Positions 24,173-56,838 of a DNA stretch of 64,000 nucleotides are shown here, piece by piece (the first letter of the stretch is position 1; each line of letters starts with the position of its first letter). The DNA comes from Chamaelirium japonicum. Lineage: Eukaryota; Streptophyta; Magnoliopsida; Liliales; Melanthiaceae. Location of the stretch: NCBI GenBank assembly GCA_947650365.1, contig OX393549.1, positions 35,124,910 through 35,188,909 of the forward strand. The letters run 5' to 3'. The translations under genes and the position numbers were made by a program. The notes under the pieces are model-generated. The model did not search any database, had not been told where the DNA came from, and worked only from the letters and a program-made list of their open reading frames with translations.

Positions 24173-27100
24173 CTAGCGGGGAACAACAGTTTTAACTCCC
24201 ATGGCATCCACGTGCTTCTCAAAAGCCTTGGTCGGTAACGCCTTTGTGCAAGGGTCCGCCATGTTATCTGCAAATACCACCTGAGTCACTGTAACCTCCC
24301 CTCGCTTCTGCAAGTCCCGGATAATATAGTATTTCTGCTCGATATGCTTGCTCTTCTGGTGATATCTTGGCTCCTTGGATTGTGCTACCGCTCCACTATT
24401 GTCACAGTAAAGGACAATAGGATCTTGAGCTCCCGGTACGCATCCTAGGTCCGTGAGGAACTTTTTGAGCCATACCGCTTCTTTAGCTGCTTCGCACGCC
24501 GCAACGTACTTAGCCTCTGTCGTCAAATCCACGATGCATCCCTGCTTTACGCTCCTCCAACTAACAGCTCCTCCTCCTAATGAAAACACAAACCCTGATG
24601 TCGATCTCTTGGATTCCGGATCTGACGCAAAGTCAGAATCCGTAATCCAATCGGTATCAGTTCCTGTGAAGAGTAAACTAACTCATAATCTCTCGTCCTA
24701 CGGAGATACTTGAGTATACTTTTCACAGCAGTCCAGTGTCCTGAACCCGGATTTGACTGATACCTGCCTATCATGCCTACTACATAGCATATATCTGGTC
24801 TCGTGCACTGCATAGCATACATCAGACTCCCTACAGCCGAAGCATAAGGTATCTTCTGCATCTCTGCCCTCTCCTCAGGAGTCTTAGGACCCTGATCCTT
24901 GGACAACTTCATTCCATATCTGAATGGAACCAGTCCCTTCTTGGAGTTGTGCATACTGAATCTGACCAAGATAGTATCTATCTAGGCTGACTGTGACAGT
25001 GAGAGAGTCTTATTCTGGCAATCTCGAGTTACCTTGATCCCCAGAACATAACTCGCTTCACCTAGGTCTTTCATGTCAAATTGAGAGGATAACCACACCT
25101 TCACTGTAGACAACGTTCCAACATCGTTTCCAATGAGCAGGATATCGTCTACATAATACACTAGAGAAACTACTGCAGACTTATCGATCCTTTTATAAAC
25201 ACATGGTTCATCTACGTTCTGCTCAAATCTATAAGACTGGATAGCCTGATCAAAACACATATTCCAACTTCTGGATGCTTGCTTCAGTCTATAAATGGGC
25301 CTTTGCAACTTGCACACCAGACTTTCCTGACCTTTTGCGACAAAGCATGGAGGCTGAGACATATAGATGTCTTCTTCCAAATCCTCATTGAGGAATGCGG
25401 TCTTGACGTCCATTTGCCAGATCTCCTAATCATAATGGGCTGCAATGGACAAGAGAATCCGGATATACTTAAGCATAGCCATTGGCGAAAAGGTTTCGTC
25501 ATAGTCGATCCCTTCTCGCTGGGTATAACCCTTAGCGACTAATCTAGCTTTGTAAGTCTCAATGGTACCATCCGGACCTCTTTTTCTTTTATACACCCAC
25601 TTACACTCAACAGGTTTAATGTTGTGAGGTGGTGTTACAAGTGTCCAGACCGAGTTTTGGGACATCGATGTCAGTTCTGCCTCCATGGCTTCCTGCCATG
25701 CTGCATGGTCAGAGGATACCATCGCTTCGTCATAGTTCAGAGGATCATCCTCCTGAAACTCTGGATCTACCATAAAGGCTTCTCCAATGTATCTATCAAG
25801 AACACTTGTGGTCCTCCCACTACGACGAGCCTGCAGTGGTTCCATAGGAGTCGATTCTACAATATCGTTTATCTTAGTGGTATCGGCTCCCACTATGTTT
25901 TCTGTCTGCGTACTCTCATCAGTACCAAGCAATTCTTCAAGAACTACTTTACTGGTGGGCTTATGGTCTATTAAATAATCATGCTCCAGGAATACGGTAT
26001 TTGTCGAGACGACAACCTTTCTATCCTCAGGGTCATAAAATAAACCACCCTTTGTCTCTTTTGGATACCCAACGAACAGACATACCTTAGTATTTGACTC
26101 CATCTTATCTCGCTTGTCCTTCCACACATGTGCTGGACAACCCCAAATCCTAAAATGTTGTAGGCTTGGCTTTCGCTTCAACCACAACTCCCAAGGAGTT
26201 AGAGGTACTGACTTTGATGGAACAAAGTTCAAAGTATATGTTGCCGTCTCTATGGCATATCCCTAAAAACTAGATAGCAATGTTGTATAACTCATCATAG
26301 TCCGAACCATGTCTAACAAAGTTCGGTTTCTCCTCTCAGATATACCGTTTTGTTGTGGTGTCCCTGGTGCAGTCAACTGGGATACGATCCCATGCTCACG
26401 AAGGTACCCAATAAATTCATCCGATATGTATTCGCCTCCTCGATCCGATTGAAGAGACTTGATACTCTTACCCGTCTGCTTTTCTGCTTCAGCTCTGAAC
26501 TCCTTGAACTTATCAAAGGATTCAGACTTTCCCCGTATTAGGTATATGTATCCAAACCTCGAGTGATTATCCGTGAATATGATGAAATACTCGAAGCCTC
26601 CTATAACACAGACACTTATGGGCCCACATATATCAGTGTGTACCAACTCTAAAACCTCCTGAGATCTGCTATCTTTGGCTTGGAAAGATCTTTTAGTCAT
26701 CTTGCCTTCCAGGCAAGACTCACACGTCGGTAGGTTTTCTGAAACATCTGGACTTAAAAGTCCTACCTTAACCAACCTGTGAATCCTATATGAGGCTATG
26801 TGTCCAAGCCTTAGATGCCAAAGGAGTGTTGGATTATCTGAGGGATTTTTCCTTTTAGATGAATTAACCACATAAGCTTCAGTTATGTTATCCTGCTTAT
26901 GATTGGAGTTAATTACATAGAGACCATTATGTATCTTTCCCTTACAAACAAAAGAACTATTCAATTTAATTGACACACCAGAAGCATCAAATAAAACTGA
27001 AAAACCTTCATTATTCAATGAGGAAACAGAAATTAAGTTTCGTCTCAAGGACGATACATAAAGTATGTCTCTAAGTAATAAACTTTTTCCATTAAGAAAC

Positions 27101-27290
27101 TACAAGACGACATCTCCAACTACTTCAGCCTCTGCCACGGCTTCAGTTACCATGCTTAGGATCATCTCCCCATCACCCAGTTTTCTTGTCTCCTTGAACC
27201 CCTGCAAGTTATTGCAAGCATGGTTAGTGGAACCAGAATCCACAAACCATGAAACTGGAGAACAACTGGATGCTACAAGGGATTACACTA
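24173..27290 (-). pseudogene. Copia pol: protease, integrase, reverse transcriptase, RNase H
   Basis: In minus order the recognisable parts are: the protease site 'WFVDSGSTNHACN' (about 27250); the gag-pre-integrase zinc site 'HLRLGHIASYRIHRLVKVG...CESCLEGK' (about 26800-26700); integrase 'HTDICGPI', 'FTDNHSRFGYIYL' and 'ERRNRTLLDMVRTM'; reverse transcriptase '[19 protein letters not shown]' and the catalytic 'YYVDDILLIGND' (about 25140); and RNase H 'TTEAKYVAACEAAKEAVWL' (about 24510). The integrase and RT segments are separated by stop codons near 27105, 26260, 25425 and 24980. A frameshift near 24590 separates RT from RNase H. A complete set of domains with so many breaks marks a decayed full-length element. 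Confidence 0.93.
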
Positions 27291-28170
27291 TATGGATTTG
27301 AGATATACCTATCTTAGCCTTCTTGGGAGCCGCACGGCAGTCGCCCTTCCAGTGCCCCTTCTTGCCGCATCGGAAACATTTTCCTTTGGGCTTCACCGGA
27401 CCATCCTGCTTAGGAACCTGCGACTGCACCTGGACCATCTTCACGGGCTTCTTAGACTTTTTTTTATGAAACTTGTCTTTGGCTATTAGAAAAGACTTCC
27501 GCTCTACGTTCAGGGATTGGGCTCCTGCCTTCATCCCGTCCTCTACCGCCTGGAGCGCTGCTAGGAATTCTGCGTTAGACATCTCCAACCAGTTAAGATT
27601 AAAGTTGGTAACGAAGCCCTCAAACGATCCTGACAAAGACGCAAGGAAAATATCGGTCTGGATCTCTGCATCCAAGATGACATCAAAGGAACCAAGCTCA
27701 TTCACATAGCCAAACAATTTCAGCATATGATCCCGAACTAAAGTCCCCCCTGCCATCTTTGTGGACACCAATTTCTTGATGGTCAGGTAACGAGTTACCC
27801 GACTACGACCCTCGAACATTTCATTTAAATAGAGCATCATGTCTGAAGCGAAGGCCATGGATTCGACTTGTTTTTGAAGGACGGTCTACAAGGATGCCAC
27901 TATGTAGCACTTGCATATCTCATCAACATCTAGCCAGTCTTTCCATTCCTTCAATTGTGCCTCAGTAGCACTTGGTCCCGGCATGGCCGGTTGAGGGGTG
28001 CTTAGGGCAATTGTATGTTTGCCAACCCTTAGGACGAGCATTAGGTTACGCTTTCAGTCCTCGTAGTTTGGTCCCGTAAATTTGTTATCATTAAGGATGG
28101 AGGCAAGGGGGTCAAGCTTGGTTATGATTTCTGTAAACAATGGTTTAAAGCAAAAATTAAGGTCTACCAC
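27283..28170 (-). pseudogene. Copia gag with CCHC zinc knuckle
   Basis: The N-terminal part 'ILNDNKFTGPNYED' (about 28090) is followed by a stop where a Trp is usual, then 'TEAQLKEWKDWLDVDEIC' and a second stop near 27885. The rest is open from MAFASDMMLYLNEM to the knuckle 'CFRCGKKGHWKGDC' (about 27370-27330). This is the nucleocapsid-like protein that packages the element RNA. Breaks show it is not functional. Confidence 0.9.
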
Positions 28171-33154: not shown

Positions 33155-33439
33155 TATACATTAATAGTGGTTTCCAAGAAAAAATAAAATTCAATGATGA
33201 TTTTTATAATCTTGAGATTCACCAAATATTCAAGGACAAGACAAGCATGATTTTTCTTCTAAATAAGTATATCATGGAAGCAAACATTGAATATATGGTC
33301 ATAAAATCAAGCAAAACACGGTATACTATAAAGTGCAAAAGGGAAGGCTGCCATTGGAGGTTGCATGCATCAAAGTTGAATGGAACTAAAATTTTTCAGA
33401 TTAAAACATTAGCTCCCGTGTACAATTGTTCATTGCCAC
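33155..33439 (+). pseudogene. MURA transposase, DNA-binding-region exon
   Basis: The frame reads 'INSGFQEKIKFNDDFYNLEI', then 'NIEYMVIKSSKTRYTIKCKR' and 'GCHWRLHASKL'. These match the MuDR N-terminal DNA-binding family pattern, with C...GC.WR. It ends at NCSLP where the gag-only LTR element begins (33440), and continues at 42240. Confidence 0.82.
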
Positions 33440-34044
33440 TGTGGGTGCAAAAATTGTACCGGACCGGATCAGAGCGGCATGGGCCCGTGCAATGGCCCAA
33501 GTGGGTAAGCCCGCCCGGGTTCATGGGCCCACTCTACGGGGCTCGCAGATCAAGCCTTCCCCTTATTGGGCCCGAACAACGGCCCAATAAGGGCCCAGCA
33601 TGGAGGCCCAGAACCAGTGCCACGTCATCATCACCATGTCATCACTGCTATATCGGGCACGTGCCTACGCTATAAAAGGACCCCCAAGGCATCCAGGAAG
33701 AAGGTGGGTCATTCAATCAGAGGAGGAGAATTCCAGAGCAAGTGCTAGAGCTCAATTCTCTCCTTCTTGTTCTTTTCTTGTTGCTCCGTGCAACCCCCAC
33801 TGTAAAAAGCTTTCCTCGGCCTGTCGAGAGAACGCTTCCCCACCATTTACTCAAATTATAGTGAAGATCAGGTGGCACCTCTCGTCCAGAGACGTAGGTC
33901 GTAAGACTGAACTTCGACAACAACTTCATGTGTCTTCTCTCTCCTTCTCAACTTTCTAATCTCTAACATACAAACAATATAATTCAATCAAGGCTGTGGG
34001 GCGGGATTCCCGATCAAAGGCGGCTCGAAAATTTCCCCCCCACA
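33440..34044 (+). repeat. TR-GAG 5' LTR with TATA box
   Basis: It carries 'gctataaaagga' at about 33670, a good TATA box, and 'cactgtaaaaagctt' downstream. It starts TG and ends CA, and is paired with 41630-42234. Confidence 0.93.
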
Positions 34045-34182
34045 ATCTTTGGCATTATCTGTGGGATATCGATAGTGGTCTTAACCACACCTCTACCGAC
34101 TCCTATTCAGCTTGTGGTGACGAGCCACAAGTCCTCCTCCAAATCAACCTCAACGCCTTCATCACGCCGACATCAACTCGCT

Positions 34183-35838
34183 CAATGGTGAAGGCCAGCA
34201 CCAACCCACCAAAGGCGGGTGCTGACCGGACAATCGACGTGCTAATCGAAGAAGAACAAGAAGTCTCAGTTGCAACCAACCGAAGAAATATTCATAAGCA
34301 ACTGGGGCCACAAGGAAGTCATCCGGGAAGCCGCAGCAATCGGTAGGACCCACCATTCCCGAGGCAACGATCTGGCAAAGAGCACGCCACCCAAGGAGAC
34401 AACAGTTCAGCTACATACCAAATTTTGGCTGCTGATTTCCAGCTACTGAACCTCCTCAAGAGGAACACAGCCCTCGAGCAAGAGAGGGATTCCCTAAAGA
34501 AGGCGGCTGAAAGAGCGGGGGTTGTGGCCCACAACTCTCTAGCTACTGATGAAAACCAACCAAGGACTCGCCCGGCCGTGAGTCATCATCTTGAAGAATC
34601 ACATGTGCCGAAAATTGAGAGGCGTCAGGTATCCACACAAGCACCAAGGCAAACGGTGTGGGATTGCCTCAACGTCGATGGTGCGCCAAGCTATCGCCGA
34701 GAAGGATCGCCTCAGTCAATAGGGTTCACTGGATGTTCTATCCCTTCACACATGAAAGCAACAGATGCCCGCGAGCTGCTCGACCGACTAAGGCATACTG
34801 CCGACGTGGGACGCCGCCATCAAGACCGTAGGTAGCTAATCACCTCGGTGGGGCCACTATATCCCAAGGTTCTTGCAACACCATTTCCTATAGGTTGGCG
34901 AACACCGAGCCTGCCAAAGTTCAACTGCATCCAGGGAGACCCTACTCTCCATATCCTAGCCTACAAGCAGGCCCTGACGCCCTACAAGTATAAGAACCAT
35001 GTTCTCTGCCGTATGTTTGCGGGAAGCCTCGAGGGATCTGCCCTCGACTGGTACTACACACTGCCTACCGGTACGGTGGCCATATTCAAAGAGTTGGCTG
35101 AACTCTTCATGGACCATTATCGGCTAAACTTAAAGCCGAAAAAGAGGATGGATACACTCTACCAGCTGAAGATGGGCTCCGACGAGTCTTTAAGGAGCTT
35201 CACGATGAGGTTTCATAATAAGCACTCTGAGCTCACCGGTCGCTCCTATAATGAGGAGGCCATCATGCTGGCATTCCAGAATGCTATCTGGCCAGAGCTC
35301 CACGTCTACACCGACTTCATCCGGCATCCTCCCAGTAACTTGGAAGCGATGTTTAAGCGCGTACAGCGGGAGATAGAGGTGGAAGACAATCAGTAGGCCA
35401 GAAGACTACGCGAGCCCCGCAAGTCTTGTGACTCCCGACATAAGAAAGATGATGAGGCTCCGAATGAAGCACCCTACAAGAAGTCTGCCCATGCCACGTC
35501 CGACCAAAAGGCCCAGGCCAAAAGGTACAATGAAGATCCGAAAGCCCCTCCAGCAGAAAAGAGGCGAACTCCAAGGGAGCAAAGGGTGTTCACTGAGCTG
35601 AACACCTCCATTGAAGACATCTTCGCCTACTTGCAGAACAAGCCCTTTTGCAAATGGCCACAACCTCTCCCTCCAAATTCTGACCATGCGGGATACGCCA
35701 GCCTACTGTGAGTTCCATCGCAGCCATGGCCACCCAACCTCTACATGTCGGAAGCTAAAGCATCACATCGAAGACCTGATCCAAGAAGGGCGGCTCGATG
35801 GCTACCTCGCTAACAAGAAACCAGGTCGAGAGAAGTAA
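34183..35838 (+). pseudogene. Gypsy-type gag (Retrotrans_gag) of the TR-GAG element
   Basis: A start at 34183 opens MVKASTNPPKAGAD. The capsid-like core at 34848-35396 reads 'FNCIQGDPTLHILAYKQAL', 'SLEGSALDWYYTLPTGTVA', 'FKELAELFMDHYRLNLKPK' and 'LRSFTMRFHNKHSELTG', the Retrotrans_gag pattern of plant Gypsy elements. At 35690-35810 'AYCEFHRSHGHPTSTCRKLK' matches the CxxH..GH...C motif that follows gag in such elements. Three in-frame stops (34344, 34833, 35394) are all TAG, and a frameshift lies near 35640-35690. No protease follows. The protein would package element RNA; this copy is broken. Confidence 0.88.
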
Positions 35839-36013
35839 AGGCAGCAGCAGGGGAGAAAGAAAGTCAACATAACACGTAGATGCATAATCATAACGTCCGT
35901 TGGGCAACCTCTGAAAAAGTGTAACTGCAACTTTGTTATATCAATAAAGTGTCTTTTTTTCTCAAAATCAAATCTCTTGAAGTTCAATTCCACCATATTA
36001 AGGCATAAAAAAA

Positions 36014-36785
36014 AGGGCTCCTGACAACCCAGGTCAACCAAAGACCTTCGATTCCGCCCATTCAAGTCGAAAGCTCGAAGATAAGTCGGCTACGCCCTCT
36101 CGAGGCTAAAGTCCGATAAAAAGGCTCCTGGTAACCCAGGTCAATCAAAGACCTTCGATTCTACCCATTCAAGTCGGAAGCTCGAAGGCAATTCGGCTAT
36201 GCCCTCTCGAGGCTAAAGTCCGATAAAAAGGCTCTTGGCAACCCAGGTCAACCAAAGACCTTCGATTCCGCCCATTCAAGTCGGAAGCTCGAAGGCAATT
36301 TGGCTACGCCCTTCAAGGCAAAAAGTCCGATAAAAAGGCTCCTAGCAACCCAGGTCAATCAAAGACCTTCGATTCCGCTTATTCAAATCGGAAGCTCGAA
36401 GGCAATTCGGCTACGCCCTTCAAGGCTAAAGTCCGATAAAAGGCTCCTGGCAACCCAGGTCAACCAAAGACCTTCGATTCCGCCCGTTCAAGTCGGAAGC
36501 TCGAAGGCAATTCGGCTACGCCCTTTCGAGGCGAAAGTCCGATAAAAAGGCTCCTGGCAACCCAGGTCAACCAAAGACCTTCAATTCCGCCTATTCAAGT
36601 CAGAAGCTCGAAGGCAATTCGGCTACGCCCTCTCGAGGCTAAAGTCTAACAAAAAGCTCCTGGTAACCCAGGTCAACCAAAGACCTTCGATTCCGCCCAT
36701 TCAAGTCGGAAGCTCAAAGGCAATTCGGCTACGCCCTTTCAAGGTGAAAGTCAGATAAAAATGCTCCTTACAATCCAGGTCAAAC
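36014..36785. repeat. TR-GAG tandem array 1, ~106-bp unit
   Basis: 'ggctcctggcaacccaggtc' recurs near 36015, 36121, 36230, 36337, 36441, 36547 and 36655, with a degraded last copy at 36761. Each unit holds 'caaagaccttcgattccgcc' and 'ggctacgccct'. It begins about 175 bp past the gag end. No coding meaning is seen. Confidence 0.93.
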
Positions 36786-36851
36786 TAAACTATCAATTAT
36801 ACTCATCCGAGGCGATGAGAATAAGTCCAAGGCAGACGTCGCCGCTTTGAC

Positions 36852-37785
36852 ATGCACCAAGTTCAAGGAGACATCCTTGGCACTCAAAGACAAAGTCCGA
36901 TTCGACCAATGCCTCGGCACTCTACAAGCCCAAGATCCAGCCCTTGGCACTCGAAGACAAAGTCCGAGGCGACCAATGCCTCGACACTCTACAAGCCCAA
37001 GGCCCTACCCTTGGCACTTGAAGGCAAAGTTCGAGGCGACCAACGCCTTGGCACTTTACAAGCCCAAGGCTCAGCCCTTGGCACTCGAAGACAAAGTCTG
37101 AGGCAACCAATGCCTTGGCACTTTACAAGCCCAAGGCACAACCCTTGGCACTCGAAGACAAAGTCCGAGGCGACCAATACATTGGCACTCGACAAGCACA
37201 AGGTCCAGCCCTTGGCACTCGAAGATAAAGTCCGAGGTGACCAATGCCTCGGCAATCTATAAGCCCAAGGCCCTGCCCTTGGTACTCGAAGACATAGGCC
37301 GAGGCGACCAATGCCTCGGCACTCTATAAGCCCAAGGCCCTGCCCTTGGTACTCGAAGACATAGGCCGAGGCGACCAATGCATCGGCACTCTACAAGCCC
37401 AAGGCCCAGCCCTTGGCACTCGAAGACAAAGTCCGAGGCGACCAATGCCTCGGTACTCTACAAGCCCAAGGCCTAGCCCTTGGCACTCGAAGACAAAGTC
37501 CGAGGCGACCAACGCCTCGGCACTCTACAAGCCCAAGGCCTAGCCCTTGGCACTCGAAGATAAAGTTTGAGGCGACCAATGCCTCGGCACTCTACAAGCC
37601 CAAGGCTCATCCCTTGGCATTCGGAGACAAAGTCCGAGGCGACCAACGCCTCGGTACTCTACAAGCCTAAGGCCCAGCCCTTGGCACTCGAAGACAAAGT
37701 CCGAGGCGACCAACACCTCGGCACTCTATAATCCCAAGGCCCTACCCTTGACACATAAAGATAAAGTCCGAGACGTCGTCGCCGA
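36852..37785. repeat. TR-GAG tandem array 2, 67-bp unit, about 13 copies
   Basis: 'cttggcactcgaagacaaag' recurs every 67 bp with few changes. As 67 is not a multiple of three, all frames cycle through the repeat, which explains the long repetitive frames on both strands; none is a gene. Units contain 'cctcggcac' and its near-inverse. Confidence 0.93.
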
Positions 37786-38165
37786 CATATTGGCATTCGA
37801 TCAAAAGTCCAAGCTTAGACTTGTCACTCAGGTCCAAGCATTAGATTGTCAATGGCCATCACCTTTTATCGACGACTAACGGTTCCAAACCAGTCAGGGG
37901 GTGGTTGGTCTAACTCTGTCAGTGCGTGCCTCCACTTTGGTGCAGTCAACGGTGGGTAACACAGGATAAAATGGTGTTTCCTTGATCCTAGCCAAGTCAA
38001 CACCCTCTCGTGACCGTAATACCTGGCGAATACAGTAACCAGGTGCGGTAGTACATTGGGTGAAAACTGGCTGGCCATCATGCGGCGTCATCCTTGATTA
38101 TCTCTAAGAAGCCCCCTCGAATATAGCATTGTCCCTTGCCGACATCCCCGCGCACCAGCGTTTTA
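37786..38165. other. TR-GAG internal spacer
   Basis: Unique sequence between arrays. 'gaatacagtaaccaggtgcg' here is echoed near 38816 ('gaatacagtaactaggtgca'), hinting at an older internal duplication. No domain is seen. Confidence 0.5.
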
Positions 38166-38168
38166 CCG

Positions 38169-38235
38169 AAAAAGTGTCGGTTTCAAATGGGGCTGAAATT
38201 CAAAAAACACACTATTTTCAATACCGACACTTTTT
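38169..38235. repeat. Hairpin with 13-bp perfect stem
   Basis: AAAAAGTGTCGGT (38169-38181) is the exact inverse of ACCGACACTTTTT (38223-38235), with a 41-base loop. It sits immediately before array 3, whose units also hold short inverted arms. Confidence 0.8.
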
Positions 38236-38249
38236 GGCCTCTTCTAGCA

Positions 38250-38602
38250 GCCCCCCCTTGGTTTCGCACAAAAACCAAGTAAGGGGGGGTGTTACACCAT
38301 CAGCTACAACCAACCCTCGGTTTCGCATAAAAACCGAGTGGGGAGGGGGTGATGGCACACCATCAGCTACAACCACCCCTCGGTTTCGTCAGAAAACCGA
38401 GAGGGGGTGTGTGTCGGCATCAACAAGCAGCCCCTCCTCGGTTTCGCAAAAAAACCATGTGGGGAGGGGGTGCGACGGCACACCATCAGCAGCCCACCCC
38501 TCGGTTTTGACAGAAAACTGAGAGGGGGCGTGTTCGGTATCAATATCAACTCACCCCGTGGTTTCGTCAGAAAATCGAGAGGGGGGTGCTCGGCGTCATC
38601 CA
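38250..38602. repeat. TR-GAG tandem array 3, ~60-bp unit, six copies
   Basis: Each unit has 'ctcggtttcg' and the inverse 'aaaaccgag' around an A-rich centre, then a G-run and 'ggcacaccatcagc' or a variant. Each unit can therefore form a small hairpin. Confidence 0.88.
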
Positions 38603-39389
38603 AACTTATTAGTCAATCCAATTCAAGTGGCATTCGCACACAAGGATCAGCCAAAGACGAAGAATTATCTTCCATTGGGTTCGTTGAATAGCATCTCAAC
38701 CAAACCTATTGAGTTGGCTATACAAACTTCACAAGCAAAATTCCTCCTTCTTATCTGGGGGTGGACTCGTGGTAACCGCCGCGTTATCGCTGGGGCCCGA
38801 CTGTAGTCCCTAGTGAATACAGTAACTAGGTGCAGTTGGGTGTCGAACAGAGACGGATGAGTTACCACGTATCGATGCCTCTTCAAGACGTGTGTAGGAC
38901 ACTCGGCCAATGCGTTCTTTAGAGTCATCTCTTTATGAAGGTGATTACCGAAAAAGTTACTCGTCAAGGTGTATGATGTTTCACGTCCACTTTGACTGGT
39001 TTTTCGGCGCCTACACAACGACACCTTATACGCACTGATCCGACGTGCATATGAAAAGTTATAACTGTCGGAAGTTTTTACTCTTGTCCGAGACTCACTA
39101 GTCCGCCGCGTCCGAGACTTCCAAATTGTCTTTGACGACTTTGCCATCACCACCTATCCTACGACACCAAATTTCTCCGTCGCCATCAAGAAGTTAAGCG
39201 AGTAGCCGAGCGCTCCTGATTCCTCATCGCCAAGGTCGAGCAGGAGAAGCTTGCCGCCATCGTCCGCACCGAGGTTAAAGAGCGGGCCGACCACGTTAGC
39301 ACATTGTTGGGTCCACCCCTCGCATGCACCCTTGTTGTGCAGATGACACAAACAAAGAAGAGAGGGAGTGGGTCTGACCCATCCCCCGC
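38603..39389 (+). other. TR-GAG internal region, possible decayed frame
   Basis: Around 39210-39300 a plus frame reads 'LIAKVEQEKLAAIVRTEV', coiled-coil-like text reminiscent of extra Gypsy frames, but it is broken. Nothing else is recognisable. Confidence 0.35.
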
Positions 39390-40166
39390 GTGCGCCTTCG
39401 TCGGGCAGTCGGCACGAGCAGAGGATAGAAGGGGAAGGGTCCTGACCCCTCGCGTGCTCGCCGCGCATCGCAGCCTGTCCAACCCCACGCTTGCCTTCCT
39501 CATCGCGCCGCCGACCGCCGACCGCCGACCGCACCCCGCTACCCTGCGCCCGGAGCAGCACGCCGACCGCGCCGGGCGCCCCGTGCCGCAGCCAGCCCGC
39601 CTACACCGCTGCCCCGCGCCACTCCGGCCTCTGTGCCGCCTGTGCCCCGGCCTCTGCACCGCTCGCGCCCCGCGCACGCCGCTGCCTCCACGGGCCAAAG
39701 CAAAGAAGAAACACAGAGAGAGAGAGAGAAAGAAAAGAGAGAGAGAGAGAGAGGGACGTCTGCTCTCCCACCGAAGCCAAAGAAGAAAAAAAAAAGGGGG
39801 GGGAGAGGGACGGCCCACAGCCTCCCTCTTCCTCTTCTCCTTTGATCCAGTCGGGAGGGCCGCCCGACTCGCGCTCGCAGCCCCCCTCTCCGATCCGATC
39901 GGGGCCAGCCCCCCGGCCCGCGACCGGCCGCCGACCGCCGCTGCTCCACCAGCCTCCGCAGCCCACGCCGGTTGAGGCCCGGACCCCGTATGTGCCTGGC
40001 CTAGATTCCGCGCCCACCACTACTCCGCTAGCCTCCCCAGCTCGCCGACTACGTTGCCCCATCGGCCTTCATAGCTCGCCGCCTACGCCGCACCACCAGC
40101 CCTCGCAGCCCCGCCCTCGTCTCGCACCATCTTCCATCTTTCATCTCTATCACCCAAGTCGGAACA
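39390..40166 (+). other. GC-rich block upstream of the CDT1 fragment
   Basis: This block is much more GC- and C-rich than the rest of the element, with (GA)n at 39715-39755. Long frames exist on both strands, all Pro/Arg/Ala-rich and mutually overlapping, as expected of GC-rich noncoding DNA. It runs directly into the start codon of the CDT1 fragment and may be its captured 5' leader or promoter-proximal DNA; that is inference. Confidence 0.45.
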
Positions 40167-40800
40167 ATGGAATCCGAAATGGGATTCCTGACCTCGTCTC
40201 ACAGATCGAGAGAGAAGCCCTCTCCACCGATCAAATCCTCGCCCATGGCGGCCGATCCGTCACTGGTGAAGGCCACACCCTCGGATCGGATCGCGACACC
40301 AGAGAAGCGGATCCAGCCGTCACGGCGGGCCAGGAAACGGAGCGTGGCCTTCTCGGTAAGGGAGGTGAATAAGATTGCTCTCACACTTCAGAGACCCGGC
40401 AAAGGGTCCATAGATCGGCCGGGTCTTGCTAGACCCGATGATCCCCTTTTATCCACGGAGGAGAAACACCGACTCCGGATCTGATTCGATCTCCAAGGCC
40501 TTGAAGGCTAAAACCCCTGCCAAGCTCCCGGAAAAGTATGAGACACTGGTAGAGTTTTTTTAATTCCATGGAGAGCTCGATTCAATTGCTTCGGTTGAAG
40601 GGATCGATGTCTACATTCCCTAATATCTGCACCAGTATTCAGCATCTGACCGAACGGAGGTTCACTTACGGGCATCTAGCGCAACTGAAGCACATCCAGC
40701 CCGAAGCGATTTTGATTAAAAAAGTGATCTTGCTTGATGAGACTACTTGCTGTATGAAGCCAGAGCTTCAGATTGCTCTGCAAACCGGTACGATAGGGGA
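40167..40800 (+). pseudogene. CDT1: Captured fragment of plant CDT1 (replication licensing factor)
   Basis: From the start codon at 40167 the text reads 'KATPSDRIATPEKRIQPSRR', then 'ARKRSVAFSVREVNKIAL', matching the conserved N-terminal motif of plant CDT1 (RNRSVALSVKE in relatives). After a frameshift near 40480 it continues 'LPEKYETLVEFF'. After another in a T-run at about 40555-40562 it continues 'SSIQLLRLKGSMSTFPNIC', 'HLTERRFTYGHLAQLKHIQP' and 'DETTCCMKPELQIAL', the geminin-binding/winged-helix core. CDT1 loads the MCM helicase at origins; this copy lacks the C-terminal MCM-binding half and is broken, so it encodes no working protein. It stops where tandem array 4 begins. Introns are not apparent in this span. 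Confidence 0.92.
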
Positions 40801-40825
40801 CGGCATGAAGCGAAAAGAAGGAAAA

Positions 40826-41520
40826 TGGGTCTCGGTACCCTCTCGGCATCCTCTCGGTCGGGAAAAGGGAAAAGGGTATCGGTACCCTCTCGGTATACTC
40901 TCGGTCGGGAAAAGGCAAAAGGGTCTCGGTACCCTCTCGGTCGGGAAAAGGGAAAAGGGTCTCGGTACCCTCTCGGTATACTCTCGGTCGAAAAATACAC
41001 TAATTTTTCGAGAACGCCTCCTCGCAAAACCGAGACTTTTTGGCTCGCACCAAAAGGGTCTCGGCGTCGGCATAAGGCAAAGGAGTCTCGGCATCCTCTC
41101 GGTCGGGAAAAGGCAAAAGGGTCTCGGTACCCTCTCAGTATCCTCTCGGCATCCTCTCGGTCGGAAAAAGGCAAAAGGGTCTCGGTACCCTCTCGGTATA
41201 CTCTCGGTCGGGAAAAGGGAAAAGGGTCTCGGTACCCTCTCGGTATACTCTCGGTCGAAAAATACACTAATTTTTCGAGAACGCCTCCTCGCAAAACCGA
41301 GACTTTTTCGCTCGCACCAAAAGAGTCTCGGTGTCGGCAGAAGGCAAAGGAGTCTCGGCATCCTCTCGGTCGGGAAAAGGCAAAAGGGTCTCGGTACCCT
41401 CTCGGTATCCTCTCGGTTGGAAAACACACTGCTTTTTTGGAAACGCCCATGTGCAAAACCGAGACTTTTGGGCTCGCGCCAAAAGGGTCTCGGCATCGGC
41501 AGAAGGAGACTCTGCTAATA
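40826..41520. repeat. TR-GAG tandem array 4, complex repeats of 'ggtctcggtaccctctcgg'
   Basis: Short modules ('ggtctcggtaccctctcggt', 'cgggaaaaggcaaaaggg') are arranged in larger blocks. One block of about 250 bp, containing 'tttttcgagaacgcctcctc' and 'aaaaccgagac', occurs at about 40985-41065 and again at 41255-41325. A shorter variant is at 41425-41475. The long frames on both strands here (for example 41714-40743) are repeat products. Confidence 0.9.
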
Positions 41521-41629
41521 CGAACCGCGACACCAACGGCCCTTGCCAACCATGCCAGAATCCTAAGGCGTTTGCACCTTGGAATCCCAGCCGACCCCGG
41601 GGGTCCTGACCCGACTGAGAGGGGGTAAC

Positions 41630-42234
41630 TGTGGGTGCAAAAATTGTACCAGACCGGATCAGAGCGACATGGGCCCGCGCAATGGCCCAAGTGGGTAAGC
41701 CCGCCCGGGTTCATGGGCCCACTCTACGGGGCTCACAGATCAAGCCCTCCCCCTTATTGGGCCCGAACAACGACCCAATAAAGGCCCAGCAAGGAGGCCC
41801 AGAACCAGTGCCACGTCATCATCGCCACGTCATCACTGTCATATCGGGCACGTGCCTACGCTATAAAAGGACCCCCAAGGCATCCAAGAAGAAGGTGGGT
41901 CATTCAATCAGAGGAGGAGAATTCCAGAGCAAGTGCTAGAGCTCAATTCTCTCCTTCTTGCTCTTTTCTTGTTACTCCGTGCAACCCCCACTGTAAAAAG
42001 CTTCTCTCGACCTGTCGAGAGAACGCTTCCCCATCATTTACTCAAATTATAGTGAAGATCAGGTGGTACCTCTCGCCCGGAGACGTAGGTCGTAAGACCG
42101 AACTTCGACAACAACTCCATGTGTCATCTCTCTCCTTCTCAACTTTCTAATCTCTAACATACAAACAATATAATTCAATCAAGGCTGTGGGGCGGGATTC
42201 CCGATCAAAGGCGGCTCGGAAATTTCCCCCCACA
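41630..42234 (+). repeat. TR-GAG 3' LTR
   Basis: It matches 33440-34044 end to end with about 20 substitutions by eye. It is preceded by 'gagagggggtaac' (purine tract) and followed by the GCCAC target duplication. Confidence 0.93.
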
Positions 42235-42239
42235 GCCAC

Positions 42240-43710
42240 AGTGTGAGGTTGATCATCAACATACTACTAGTAGGTTGATTAGTGAGTCTGTAAAGGATCG
42301 ACTTGAAGCATATGTACTTTACACACCAAAGACGATTATATGTGATGTTCAGAAAAAGGTTTGGTGTCAAAATTAGTTGCAGAAAAGCATGGAAGGCGAG
42401 AGAGATTGCTATTAATAAGTACGGGGATCATATAAGGACTCTTATGCATTGCTTCCTATGTATTGTGATCAGCTCATGAAAATGAATCATGGGACTATTG
42501 CAAAAATCCAACGAGAATGAGGTAGGTTTCTTCGTTTGTTTTTGGCCCTTGGTCAATGTATTAGAGTTTATCGAAAAGGGTTGTTAAGGCCAGCGATAGC
42601 TGTTGATGGATCCCCATTTAAAGGGAAAGTATAAAGGGACACTTTTCCTTGCCACTATTTTGGATGGAGATAACCATATATTTCCTATTGCACTTGGCAT
42701 TGGAGAATCCGAGAATAACAACAGTTGGAATTAGTTCTTGACACAGCTGCGTGATGCATTATGTATAACAGAACAGATGATGAGAAACTTGGTTATTATA
42801 TCAGATCGTCATATGGGTTTATTGTCTCAAGTTCCAGTAGTCTTTCCACATGCTTACCATGGATATTGTACATTTCATATATCTCAAAATATGTTTTCAA
42901 AATTTAAGCAACCACGGCTATACTCATATTTCTACAATACTGCCAAGGCAACAAGGCCAACAAAGTTTTATTCATTAATGGAGATCATTAAAAAAGTCAA
43001 CAAAGAGGCATATGAATGGCTGAACAATATTGATAAAAAAAGATGGACTACGGCATTTTTTCCCAGAAGACGGTACAATATTATTACCACAAACTCTTCT
43101 GAAAGCTACAATAGTGTTCTGAAAGAAATCAGAGAATATCCAATTACAATGATTATTGAGGAATTTCGATTAAAGCTACAAGGTATGTGGTTCAAGCGAC
43201 GAAATGTGGCAACTGCTTTGACAACCATACTAACTACTTGAGCTGAAAAAGAGTTAGCATCAGATATGTCACATGCTCGTGACATAAGTTGTGATCCAAT
43301 TAATATTGATGAGTATTTCGTTAGATCATTGCATCACCATGATCATGTGGTGTTGAGTAAGGGTATGTGCACTTGTCGTAAGTTTGATGTCATGGAGATG
43401 CCTTGTATTCATGCCTTAGCTGGACTTGCGATTTACAAAATAGATCCATATAAGTACTGTGCATATTTTTACTCTGTTGATAATTATCGAAAAACATATG
43501 AAGAGTCAATCTATCCAGTTGGAGACAAAAGTTAATGGGAGGTACCAAAGTTGCAGACTTCTAAAAAATTTATTACCACCGATGATGAAAACTCCAGCAT
43601 GAAGGCCAAAGAAGAAGCGGATACTCTCTCAAGATGACGAACATAGAACAGTCAAATGTGGTAGATGTAAACGGACGGAGCATAATAGAAAGTCCTGTAA
43701 GTTTTCTATT
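42240..43710 (+). pseudogene. MURA transposase, catalytic core, SWIM and CCHC zinc fingers
   Basis: The text resumes after the LTR element: 'EVDHQHTTSRLISESVKDRL', then 'GVKISCRKAWKAREIAI', the MULE linker. The catalytic region has 'AIAVDGSPFKGK' with the first Asp, 'LATILDGDNHIFPIALGIGE', 'VIISDRHMGLLSQVP' with the second Asp, and 'YHGYCTFHISQNMFSKFK'. The SWIM finger is 'CTCRKFDVMEMPCIHALAG' (about 43370-43425). A CCHC knuckle 'CGRCKRTEHNRKSC' follows at about 43650. A frameshift lies near 42625, Trp-to-stop changes near 42735, and more stops near 43240 and 43535. The gene is dead but complete in domain order. No mudrB-like gene was found. Confidence 0.92.
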
Positions 43711-44249: not shown

Positions 44250-45000
44250 CTACAGAAATAAGACTCTGAATGTATACTCCTTGAGCATTTATGGAGCATA
44301 TAACAGCTCCAATGCATGTAACATATCATACTCCTAGATCACAAAAATAATATTGAATGTCTACTCCTAGAACATGTAATATGCTCCACTTATGCTCCAC
44401 AACAGTGATATCGCTCCACTTTAAAAAAGCTCACAAGATGTTGTTTTTTCGGCATAAAAATTTACACCAGTTCTTATAATTTCTGAAAATTTTTTCATCA
44501 TAAGTTCATCCACAGTTCTATCTTCAAGCTACAAAAATTGGACAAACGGGACATGATTTTTGGTTTACCTAAAGCCAGAAAGAGAAGAAATAATTTAAAA
44601 CCTATAAAACATTTAAAGGACAAAGAAGAATATACAGTTAAGTATGATCAATTGTTGTGGAGCATATATGTCACTGTTGTGGAGTATGTGATATGCTCCA
44701 GAAGTACAGAAGACAGACTGCTCACAACTTAATGTCACTGTTATGGAGCATATTACATGCTCAAGGAGCATATGATATGCTCCAATATGCTCCACAAAAG
44801 TAATAGCCAGCTGAGATATATGGAGCATATTATATGCTCTATATATATGCTCCACACCAGTAATTACCAGCTGAGATATATGGAGCATATCATATGCTCC
44901 AATATGCTCCACACCAGTAATAGCCAGCTGAGATATATGAAGCATATTATATGCTCCACACCAGTAATTATTAGCAGCTGAGATAAATGGAGCACATCAT
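44250..45000. repeat. 'GGAGCATAT' palindromic repeat cluster, left copy
   Basis: Many copies of 'tggagcatat' and 'atatgctcca', in both orientations, make local palindromes. The segment 44260-44400 ('gactctgaatgtatactcc' through 'gctccacaacagtga') is matched in the same orientation at about 57220-57380. The part at about 44650-44760 is the inverse. All reading frames here come from the repeats. Confidence 0.85.
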
Positions 45001-45450
45001 ATATGTAAGATAAAAATTTAATTTTAAAATGACTCTAAATCCCATGTAAGATGAAAATCTGTTTTTGCAAAATAAACCCAAATCCAACACATAGTTGGAT
45101 TTTAAAAGAAAAACTATCAAATTTTAAAATCAGCTTTGGAAAAAACCATCGGTGTTGGAATTGGAAAAAACCATCGAATTTTAAAATAAAACTTAGATTT
45201 TAAAGGAAAAACCACCGGTATTGGATTTGAACTAATACCAAGCATAATCCAACTCTATGTTGGATTTGGGCTCATTTTCCAAAATCAGATGTTCATCTTA
45301 CATGGGATTTAGAGTCCAATTTGAAAATCAAATCCGAGAAGCATCAGATCCAAAACATGGACAATGCTTTCTTTTAAAATCTGATTTTGAAATCGAATTT
45401 TCGATTCAAAATGTCAATTTAAGAATTCGATTCAAAATGCTACCTTGTAT
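45001..45450. repeat. Low-complexity 'aaatctgattttaaaat' repeats
   Basis: Many short variants of 'gattttaaaatc' in both orientations. Similar text follows the second 'GGAGCATAT' cluster (57770-57960), so the two repeat types form a composite block present twice in the MULE. Confidence 0.7.
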
Positions 45451-55343: not shown

Positions 55344-56838
55344 CCTTAGGCTGAACTGCATCAATCATCACAGAAGGAAATGGACGACTATGCTCATCAT
55401 CAATTTTAAGCTTTTTTCCCTCAATGTCAGGCTCCATGTCCCTCTTCTGTAAAACATACTTTATCAGATCTTCATTCTCATATTCATCGCTAGCTGACTC
55501 AGATTCTGCCAATGAGTGAGATTGCATCAGTTCATCCTTAGTCCACTTCAAATCTTTAACAATTTCAACCTAAAAAATATAACACAATGATATTGATTAG
55601 TAAATATATATTTCAAAATGAAGGACAATTACATAAAGAAAAAATACTTACATCATCCATCTCCAATAACGTTGCTACTTCATCGTACTTGTAATATGCA
55701 AAGTTGTACCAACTGCAAATCCTTGGAATTTTGGGATCCTTCAACTTCGAAGCACAAGCACGACCCAACTTGGGAATCTTTTTAAGTACCCAAGACTGTC
55801 AATATCAAGTTTAATATGTTATAAGAAAATGATTGACAACTACGTAGAAATACAAAGTTTAGAAATCAAATTATATACCTGGAAAGCAAGCACGCATCCA
55901 AATACAGTATACTTGATTGGATTCTTATCATCCTCTAATGCTCCTTCCATGCCTGCTTTCAAGGCATTGTAGCATATGTTACCCCATGGGTAAGCATTAA
56001 ATACCTCAAGATTATCCACCAAAGCTAAGAAGTGCATAAGTATGTTATTAACATTATTGGCACCAAGAACGTAACTCTCCAAAATTAGAATTAAAGTCAA
56101 CTTCAAAGCATCCTCCAAATTTATTTTCTGATCCTCAAAGTGTTTAACCTTGTCCCACAACGTTGCCTGTGTAATCTTATTTCCAAAGAATTTCCGTAAT
56201 CGTGGCTTTTGTTGTTGTGGTAGTCTGGGTAGCTTCGGGCCTTTCATATATCTTAGGCCCGTCTTTGCAGAGAACTCAGCAACTGTAAATGTTAACTTTG
56301 TATTTCCTATCTTGAATGAAATATCATCATCCTTCACTCTATGCTGAAGGAAGTAGTGAGTGACCATCGGCAAAAACATTGTCCCTGATGACTTCATACT
56401 CAATAAATGGCCAAAACATGACCTAGAGAGAAAATCCAATGCATCTGAGTTGTTCTTAAAAAGATCAACAATTTTCTCTATATAATAGCTCGTGCACCTT
56501 CTAACAGGTTTGGGCATCTTCTCAACTTTCTGTACTGCAAGTTTGGGCTTTTTCGTACCTTTTTGTCCATCTTCTTCAATTGACTCCATTTTCTCTTTTG
56601 ATATTTTTTTTGTACTAGATGACGGAGCTGCCCTCTTGCTTTTGAATGATGTCGGAGTGGATTTCTTCTCTTCTTCGTTATCAACTTACAACTTTACTTT
56701 CTTCTTTCTTTTCAGTTCTTCACTAAGGGACGGAGGTACCTTTGTCTTCTTTTTTTGAGATGTCATCAGCTTTTTTATAGGATTCTTCACTGGTAGCATA
56801 GAGGACGTCGTCCTAGCACTCCTTCTAAGTGGAGAATT
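55344..56838 (-). pseudogene. DUF1985-type gene of the MULE (Ulp1-associated family), truncated
   Basis: The first visible exon (56838-55879) opens 'NSPLRRSARTTSSMLPVKNP', has a Lys-rich N-terminus with one stop near 56690, then the DUF1985-like domain: 'DALDFLSRSCFGHLLSMKSS', 'FKIGNTKLTFTVAEFSAKTG', and 'LILILESYVLGANNVNNI' with 'YPWGNICYNAL'. Exon two (55795-55652) reads 'SWVLKKIPKLGRACASKLKD' and exon three (55569-55344) an acidic tail. All have GT-AG splice sites. In plants DUF1985 is commonly joined to a Ulp1 cysteine protease domain carried by MULEs. Here no protease domain is seen, so the gene is truncated or the domain lost. Its function is unknown. Confidence 0.78.

Follow-up and report, generated by a model that had tools for sequence, protein, structure and literature searches.

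How a fragment of the replication-licensing gene CDT1 came to lie between the long terminal repeats (LTRs) of a retrotransposon is the question raised by the 64,000-nucleotide stretch of Chamaelirium japonicum DNA analysed here (the window, C1:35124910-35188909). An earlier note, made from the letters of the window, had proposed capture of the gene piece by a gag-only LTR element, and the analysis bears this out: the donor gene was found, its introns are absent from the piece, 12 copies are found within one family of elements, and the window element represents one insertion. It is very probable that the segment is a 5' fragment of the spliced host CDT1 mRNA, which was copied into the element by template switching and then multiplied with it.

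As shown in Table 1, the element is bordered on both sides by the same five-base target-site duplication and lies between domains of an interrupted gene. Rejoining the flanks without one copy of GCCAC gives an open frame of about 90 codons across the joint; the target duplication and the open rejoined flanks thus identify the 8.8-kb unit as a single insertion into a MuDR-type transposase gene, and the content between the element ends must therefore have arrived with the element or entered it later. A TATA-like motif, CTATAAAAG, was picked out by eye within the 5' LTR. The two LTRs differ at 26 of 604 aligned bases, with 24 of the differences being transitions (K2P 0.045). The substitution rate in grasses is 1.3e-8 per site per year, at which this difference corresponds to about 1.7 million years, or to about 3.5 million years at half the rate.

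Table 1. Features of the LTR element, its captured gene pieces and its flanks in the window.
Feature	Position	Strand	Remark
MuDR transposase DNA-binding domain of interrupted gene, left side	33223..33402	+	PF03108, E 1.5e-13
Left target-site duplication GCCAC	33435..33439	+	
LTR element	33440-42234	+	8.8 kb
5' LTR, 605 bp, TGTGGG...CCCACA	33440..34044	+	
gag reading frame	34836..35396	+	PF03732, E 2e-8 (Pfam), domain at 34836-35393
Tandem array, 107-bp unit	36011..36783	+	
Tandem array, 67-bp unit	36875..37772	+	
Tandem array, ~60-bp unit	38254..38585	+	
Captured prohibitin (PHB3-type) fragment	39065..39306	+	one frame change and one stop
GC-rich element-family segment separating prohibitin and CDT1 blocks	39442..40100	+	
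CDT1 5' untranslated leader, 66 nt	40101..40166	+	starts at donor's predicted transcription start
CDT1 exon 1, coding part	40167..40535	+	donor comparison
CDT1 exon 2	40536..40656	+	joins exons 1 and 3 without introns
CDT1 exon 3, truncated within exon	40657..40823	+	3' junction ambiguous by a few bases
Element-specific 3' repeat array	40818..41506	+	
Polypurine-rich tract ahead of 3' LTR	41617..41629	+	by eye
3' LTR, 605 bp	41630..42234	+	
Right target-site duplication GCCAC	42235..42239	+	
MULE transposase domain of interrupted gene, right side	42615..42890	+	PF10551, E 3e-19
PPR gene with E motif, open 631 codons	61880-63772	-	only clear host gene among ten scanned frames

TR-GAG elements are defined as having LTRs and a gag domain without other domains (PMC6022998). 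In Pfam searches of the window element, no pol domain (reverse transcriptase, integrase, RNase H) was detected in the plus frames of 35701-40166 at E up to 0.1 or in the gag-region frames of 34347-35708, and the minus frames of 35701-41627 gave only weak matches under the curated cut-offs; the plus frames of 40811-41629 and 34045-34346 lay outside the scan. The LTR pair, and gag as the only domain in the scanned parts, support the classification as a non-autonomous TR-GAG element, as the earlier note had named it. That note had also placed the segment far from any host gene; the one clear host gene among ten outside frames scanned with Pfam is a PPR gene about 19.6 kb downstream. The window also contains a copia-type element at 24985-27885 (-), whose gag, integrase and reverse transcriptase pieces have broken frames, an open frame with a DUF1985 domain at 55843-56685 (-), and an inverted repeat at 45031-45316 with 71-nt arms of 90% complementarity, adjoined by direct repeats of about 60 bp at 44765-44956.

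The open piece at 40556-40810 matches the CDT1 family PF08839 (E 1.3e-8, 35.7 bits, cut-off 22.6), and the N-terminal piece at 40167-40481 has no Pfam match. All three PDB matches of 40559-40810 up to E 10 are CDT1 chains, with weak E-values of 0.53-1.3. What settles the identity first read from the sequence is the donor gene, which this genome contains in intact form. The two frameshifts that had been noticed are likewise real and correspond to a 5-base deletion and a 1-base insertion relative to the donor. The limits first assigned, 40167-40800, enclose genuine CDT1 sequence, but the true extent is 40101 to about 40823 and includes 5' untranslated sequence; the geminin-binding core that had been called readable is recognised by PF08839, but only about its first third was captured (profile 12-65 of 170), and the combination of a complete geminin-binding domain with an open frame, as in a functional CDT1 gene, is absent from the piece. 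The 5' junction of the block is ambiguous by about 8 bases, and its 3' border lies in exon 3, where donor, element copy and repeat resemble one another. The CDT1 piece has the same (sense) orientation as the LTR and gag, and the element holds no antisense copy of 39001-40830. No relative turned up in viral contigs scanned with the LTR start and with the gag and CDT1 pieces, or in prokaryote genomes scanned with the CDT1 piece, as expected for a plant element.

Copies and donors were sought in the whole assembly (1.52 Gb, 3,253 contigs). The PF08839 profile gave 11 matches, all above the cut-off, and a DNA search with 40167-40810 gave at least 19, which come from copies, the donor and a paralog. 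The intact donor CDT1 gene lies near 35.89 Mb on C2 (C2:35890562..35889701) and matches 40167-40810 in three pieces at 94-96% identity; over the full block, its pieces align to window positions 40101-40541, 40536-40657 and 40656-40823 at 92.4-95.9%. The paralog, at C2:13780420-13782078, also matches in three pieces and is 81-92% like the fragment. Two donor introns, of 111 bp (GTAAGA...GTTCAG) and 103 bp (GTACCA...TAATAG), are exactly missing from the element copies, so the source was a spliced mRNA, not genomic DNA. CDT1 homology begins near C2 position 35890622, 60 donor bases upstream of the ATG and 29 bp downstream of a donor TATATA, a distance from which the start of the block is predicted to be the 5' end of the mRNA. 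The GC-rich segment at 39442-40100 was considered as a CDT1 promoter and rejected; it has no match to the donor locus, and parts of it recur at many other places.

At least 12 element copies carry CDT1, two of them partial, and one of these (on C10) is split into two pieces. All 12 lie in the context of the same element family, the C10 copy having been checked at its 5' piece. K2P distances are 0.041-0.066 to the donor and 0.022-0.057 among the copies (mean 0.039), and 23 fixed differences in 719 columns separate the donor from the 12 copies. In the tree the copies form one clade with support 100/95, the bootstrap being not fully settled, and no well-supported branching order is seen inside it. 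We read this as one CDT1 capture followed by a burst of copies. Frameshifting indels relative to the donor are present in 12 of 12 copies, and an in-frame stop in two. The dN/dS values against the donor are 0.40-0.68, and the pooled pN/pS among copies is 0.60, a value from a simple method that is no test of selection and is not separable from neutral decay with transition bias. The copies are read as decaying, and the fragment itself is most likely just carried along in decay, with no function as a protein.

A second host gene, absent from the earlier note, lies in the same element upstream of CDT1. Two adjacent pieces in different frames, compared with 177,635 PDB sequences up to E 10, matched prohibitins in seven of seven and two of two cases, with weak best E-values of 0.027 and 0.041; when the pieces were joined, all eight matches were prohibitins, the best at E 4.5e-9. 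Pfam gave no Band_7 match for the pieces, single or joined. A longer stretch, 38603-39151 (with X at stops), gave three weak PDB matches, of which only one is a prohibitin, and 38601-39062 gave none. The genome's own PHB3-like genes match the fragment at the DNA level at 76.7% and 73.2%; K2P to a genome gene is 0.21 (230 columns; 25 gap columns), and the local alignment scores 241, whereas 200 shuffles reached 73 at most. The identification as prohibitin follows from the PDB matches together with the genome's own prohibitin genes, whose frames have no intron in the matched stretch. Judged by its divergence, the prohibitin capture is older than that of CDT1.

The prohibitin block offers a common reference point within the family. 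Of the 85 first-look candidates from a genome search with 39040-39320, 40 gave scored matches, and the sequence after the prohibitin block was read in 32 of these 40 loci; with the LTR, the number of first-look candidates was 3,703. CDT1 follows the block in eight of these, adenosylhomocysteinase in three, and YSL, a RACK1-like WD40 gene, PDX1 and HD-ZIP IV in one each; the repeat array follows directly, with no insert, in five, and the remaining 12 carry an insert matching none of the gene probes. All 15 assigned inserts are on the element plus strand, in sense. Among the other eight scored loci, five adjoin known inserts by their coordinates (CDT1 on C12 and C6, adenosylhomocysteinase on C7 and C11, YSL on C4). 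The open frames of seven probe-negative loci (L036, L058, L060, L061, L063, L065, L067) gave no Pfam match at E 0.001 to 0.01; L039, L062, L064, L066 and L069 were outside that scan. Long inserts following the prohibitin block are shared within two sets of sister elements, one comprising L058, L060, L061 and L062 and the other L063, L064, L065, L066 and L069.

The assigned inserts were characterised by Pfam and by comparison with likely donors. Adenosylhomocysteinase is matched by PF05221 (1.4e-102), YSL by PF03169 (6.4e-66), the RACK1-like insert by WD40 (7e-18 and 6.7e-22), and PDX1 by PF01680 (1.6e-77); within these families, we take the genes to be YSL, RACK1 and PDX1. The HD-ZIP insert itself is blank in Pfam, and it is 96.3% identical over 593 bp to a gene with homeodomain, START and PDF2_C domains; its name therefore follows from the homeodomain and START domains of the likely donor. 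PDB matches of this insert were set aside, as they look like chance matches of a simple stretch. The PDX1 locus has only a truncated prohibitin match, separated from the insert by about 900 bases of other sequence. In all, the family carries pieces of at least seven host genes, prohibitin itself and six others that follow the old prohibitin block, and likely donors were found for six of the seven (PDX1 is left out, and for prohibitin these are the nearest genes only).

Adenosylhomocysteinase provides the closest parallel to CDT1. Its five copies, at 99-100%, run through 831 bases, in which the element has an exact join where the best donor, on C134, is split by an intron of about 1.1 kb (borders AAG/GTGAGA and ACAG/TTTGAC). 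The capture starts near position 402960 of C134, 79 bases upstream of the ATG, 33 bp downstream of a TATATATA TATA motif, and ends within the coding region, after which come family repeats and LTR sequence; this 3' sequence matches that of the window element (82% for repeats plus LTR, 87% for LTR plus gag start). No intron interrupts the matched part of the likely donors of the YSL, RACK1 and HD-ZIP inserts (for RACK1, of the match presumed to be the gene), so that the intron-loss test applies to CDT1 and adenosylhomocysteinase only. The YSL and HD-ZIP inserts begin inside the gene, as presumably does the RACK1 insert, so a start at the predicted mRNA 5' end is seen in two of the five inserts judged (PDX1 left out) and is not general.

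Several further observations concern these sister elements. More distant intron-free adenosylhomocysteinase groups of different extents, at 78-90% identity, occur at C5:43066732, C1:103675924, C2:95350469, C11:40552755 and about eleven more places, and may perhaps be older or independent captures of the same gene. At C11:40264556-40271539, two adenosylhomocysteinase-bearing elements form a tandem pair with a spacing of about 6.7 kb and seem to have one LTR in common. In L049 (1597-3279; C3, near 25.10 Mb), an open frame of 561 codons, reaching the edge of the fetched stretch, spans prohibitin, an intron-free part of the YSL transporter and element repeats, and possibly encodes a chimeric protein.

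The following course of events would account for the CDT1 block. CDT1 mRNA may have been packaged together with element RNA; reverse transcriptase, proceeding from the 3' side, would have switched at a short similarity from the element repeat array to the CDT1 mRNA, run to its 5' end, and then returned to the element RNA. Because the scanned parts of the element contain no pol, the enzymes must come from elsewhere, presumably supplied in trans by an autonomous relative. The analysis turned up no partner carrying pol; a larger sister at C1:34.53 Mb, considered for this role, showed only gag in the 6 kb read. Since first-strand synthesis starts from the 3' side, entry at the repeats and exit at the mRNA 5' end would in this order give the shapes of both the CDT1 and the adenosylhomocysteinase captures. 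The element carrying CDT1 would then have multiplied, and the same family would have repeated the process with other host mRNAs in one region just after the prohibitin fragment. Template switching fits the exact removal of introns from two independent captures, the sense orientation, the incomplete mRNAs and the borders against element repeats.

Two other origins of the block have to be weighed against this. A processed CDT1 pseudogene made by a LINE and inserted into one element that later multiplied would equally lack introns, as any retrocopy does, and would agree with the single origin of the CDT1 copies. LINE retrocopies, however, usually show the opposite truncation, with the 3' end kept and the 5' end missing; the block retains the 5' end without the 3' end, breaks off within exon 3 and is followed at once by element repeats, the joint having no poly(A), and the same region of sister elements contains five other assigned host genes, which makes this origin improbable. 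Capture at the DNA level, by recombination or by an event of the Pack-MULE or Helitron type, might be suggested by the position of the element in a MuDR-type transposase gene, such transposons being known gene captors; yet it is contradicted by the exact loss of both donor introns, and the block lies between LTRs and is common to 12 copies at other places, so that we give this origin almost no credence.

A separate matter is whether the captured pieces are retained because they act, either through small RNAs lowering CDT1 expression, an effect that the earlier note had raised as a speculation on antisense or small RNA, or as a chimeric protein. Among the 701 donor 21-mers, 396 are found in at least one of the 12 CDT1 copies, one sister copy has the long open frame through prohibitin and YSL sequence, and small RNAs on LTR-captured genes have been reported in rice and sorghum (PMC3726574). 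Against this stand the frameshifts in every CDT1 copy and the stops in two, the sense orientation with no inverted copy in the element, and a pN/pS that neutral decay would also give; retention for such a function is unlikely.

Template switching onto co-packaged mRNAs, the preferred reading, has been described before; the novelty lies in a family that has used one capture region repeatedly. We tentatively suggest, while holding it to be somewhat less probable than its negation, that the stretch from the prohibitin block to the 3' repeats is a capture-competent region favoured for switching onto host mRNAs, which would make the family an RNA-level gene-shuffling platform. If so, its output would be comparable to that of Pack-MULEs, with spliced gene parts exported in sense, sometimes in long chimeric open frames, and with the capped mRNA end reached at least sometimes. 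Should transcript data bear out the starts at mRNA 5' ends, this would suggest run-off from the end of the mRNA as one template-switching route in plants. Plant LTR gene capture has so far been documented mainly in genome-wide catalogues, and with donors, intron-free copies, insert-free sisters and six assigned inserts at one region together in one genome, the mechanism can be put to the test: the points at which reverse transcriptase quits the element RNA and returns to it, the choice of mRNAs, and the frequency of capture. The CDT1 copies are also well suited to the question of whether a replication-licensing gene is influenced in its expression by numerous near-identical fragments of itself.

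In maize, 425 intact LTR elements with gene fragments, representing at least 189 captures, have been reported, and under the conditions of that survey no element held more than one standard gene (PMC2774510), whereas the window element carries two host genes, prohibitin and CDT1. For rice and sorghum, 672 and 1,343 captured genes have been reported, some with small RNAs and many of them pseudogenes (PMC3726574); the word CDT1 is absent from the main text of that report. The gene fragments in LTR elements of maize, rice and sorghum are captures as well, by the hundreds (PMC2774510, PMC3726574). Among the top-ranked literature there is no capture of CDT1 or prohibitin by an LTR element, though the supplementary gene lists of the surveys may hide a case of CDT1.

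LTR-mediated retroposition by template switching was reportedly described by Tan et al. In this process an LTR element takes up a copy of an mRNA, frequently a partial one, through switches where the two are similar over a short stretch (PMC5408686), and template switching is also treated in PMC13317346. Compared with that process as described (PMC5408686), one region of one plant family is reused here, and two captures begin at the predicted mRNA 5' end. Compared with TR-GAG elements, the window element is distinguished by its 8.8 kb with long tandem arrays and host inserts. The maize element Bs1 is an LTR element with parts of three host genes (PMC13317346, PMC5408686, PMC7264820), and the window element resembles it in carrying pieces of several host genes, at least two (prohibitin and CDT1). 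Unlike in Bs1, the pieces vary among sister elements at one region, gag is retained in the window element, and one capture, that of CDT1, is present in at least 12 copies. Like Pack-MULEs, which are transposons with pieces of many host genes (PMC13317346), the family has collected several; unlike them, it belongs to a different class of element, and what it captured was spliced RNA, not genomic DNA.
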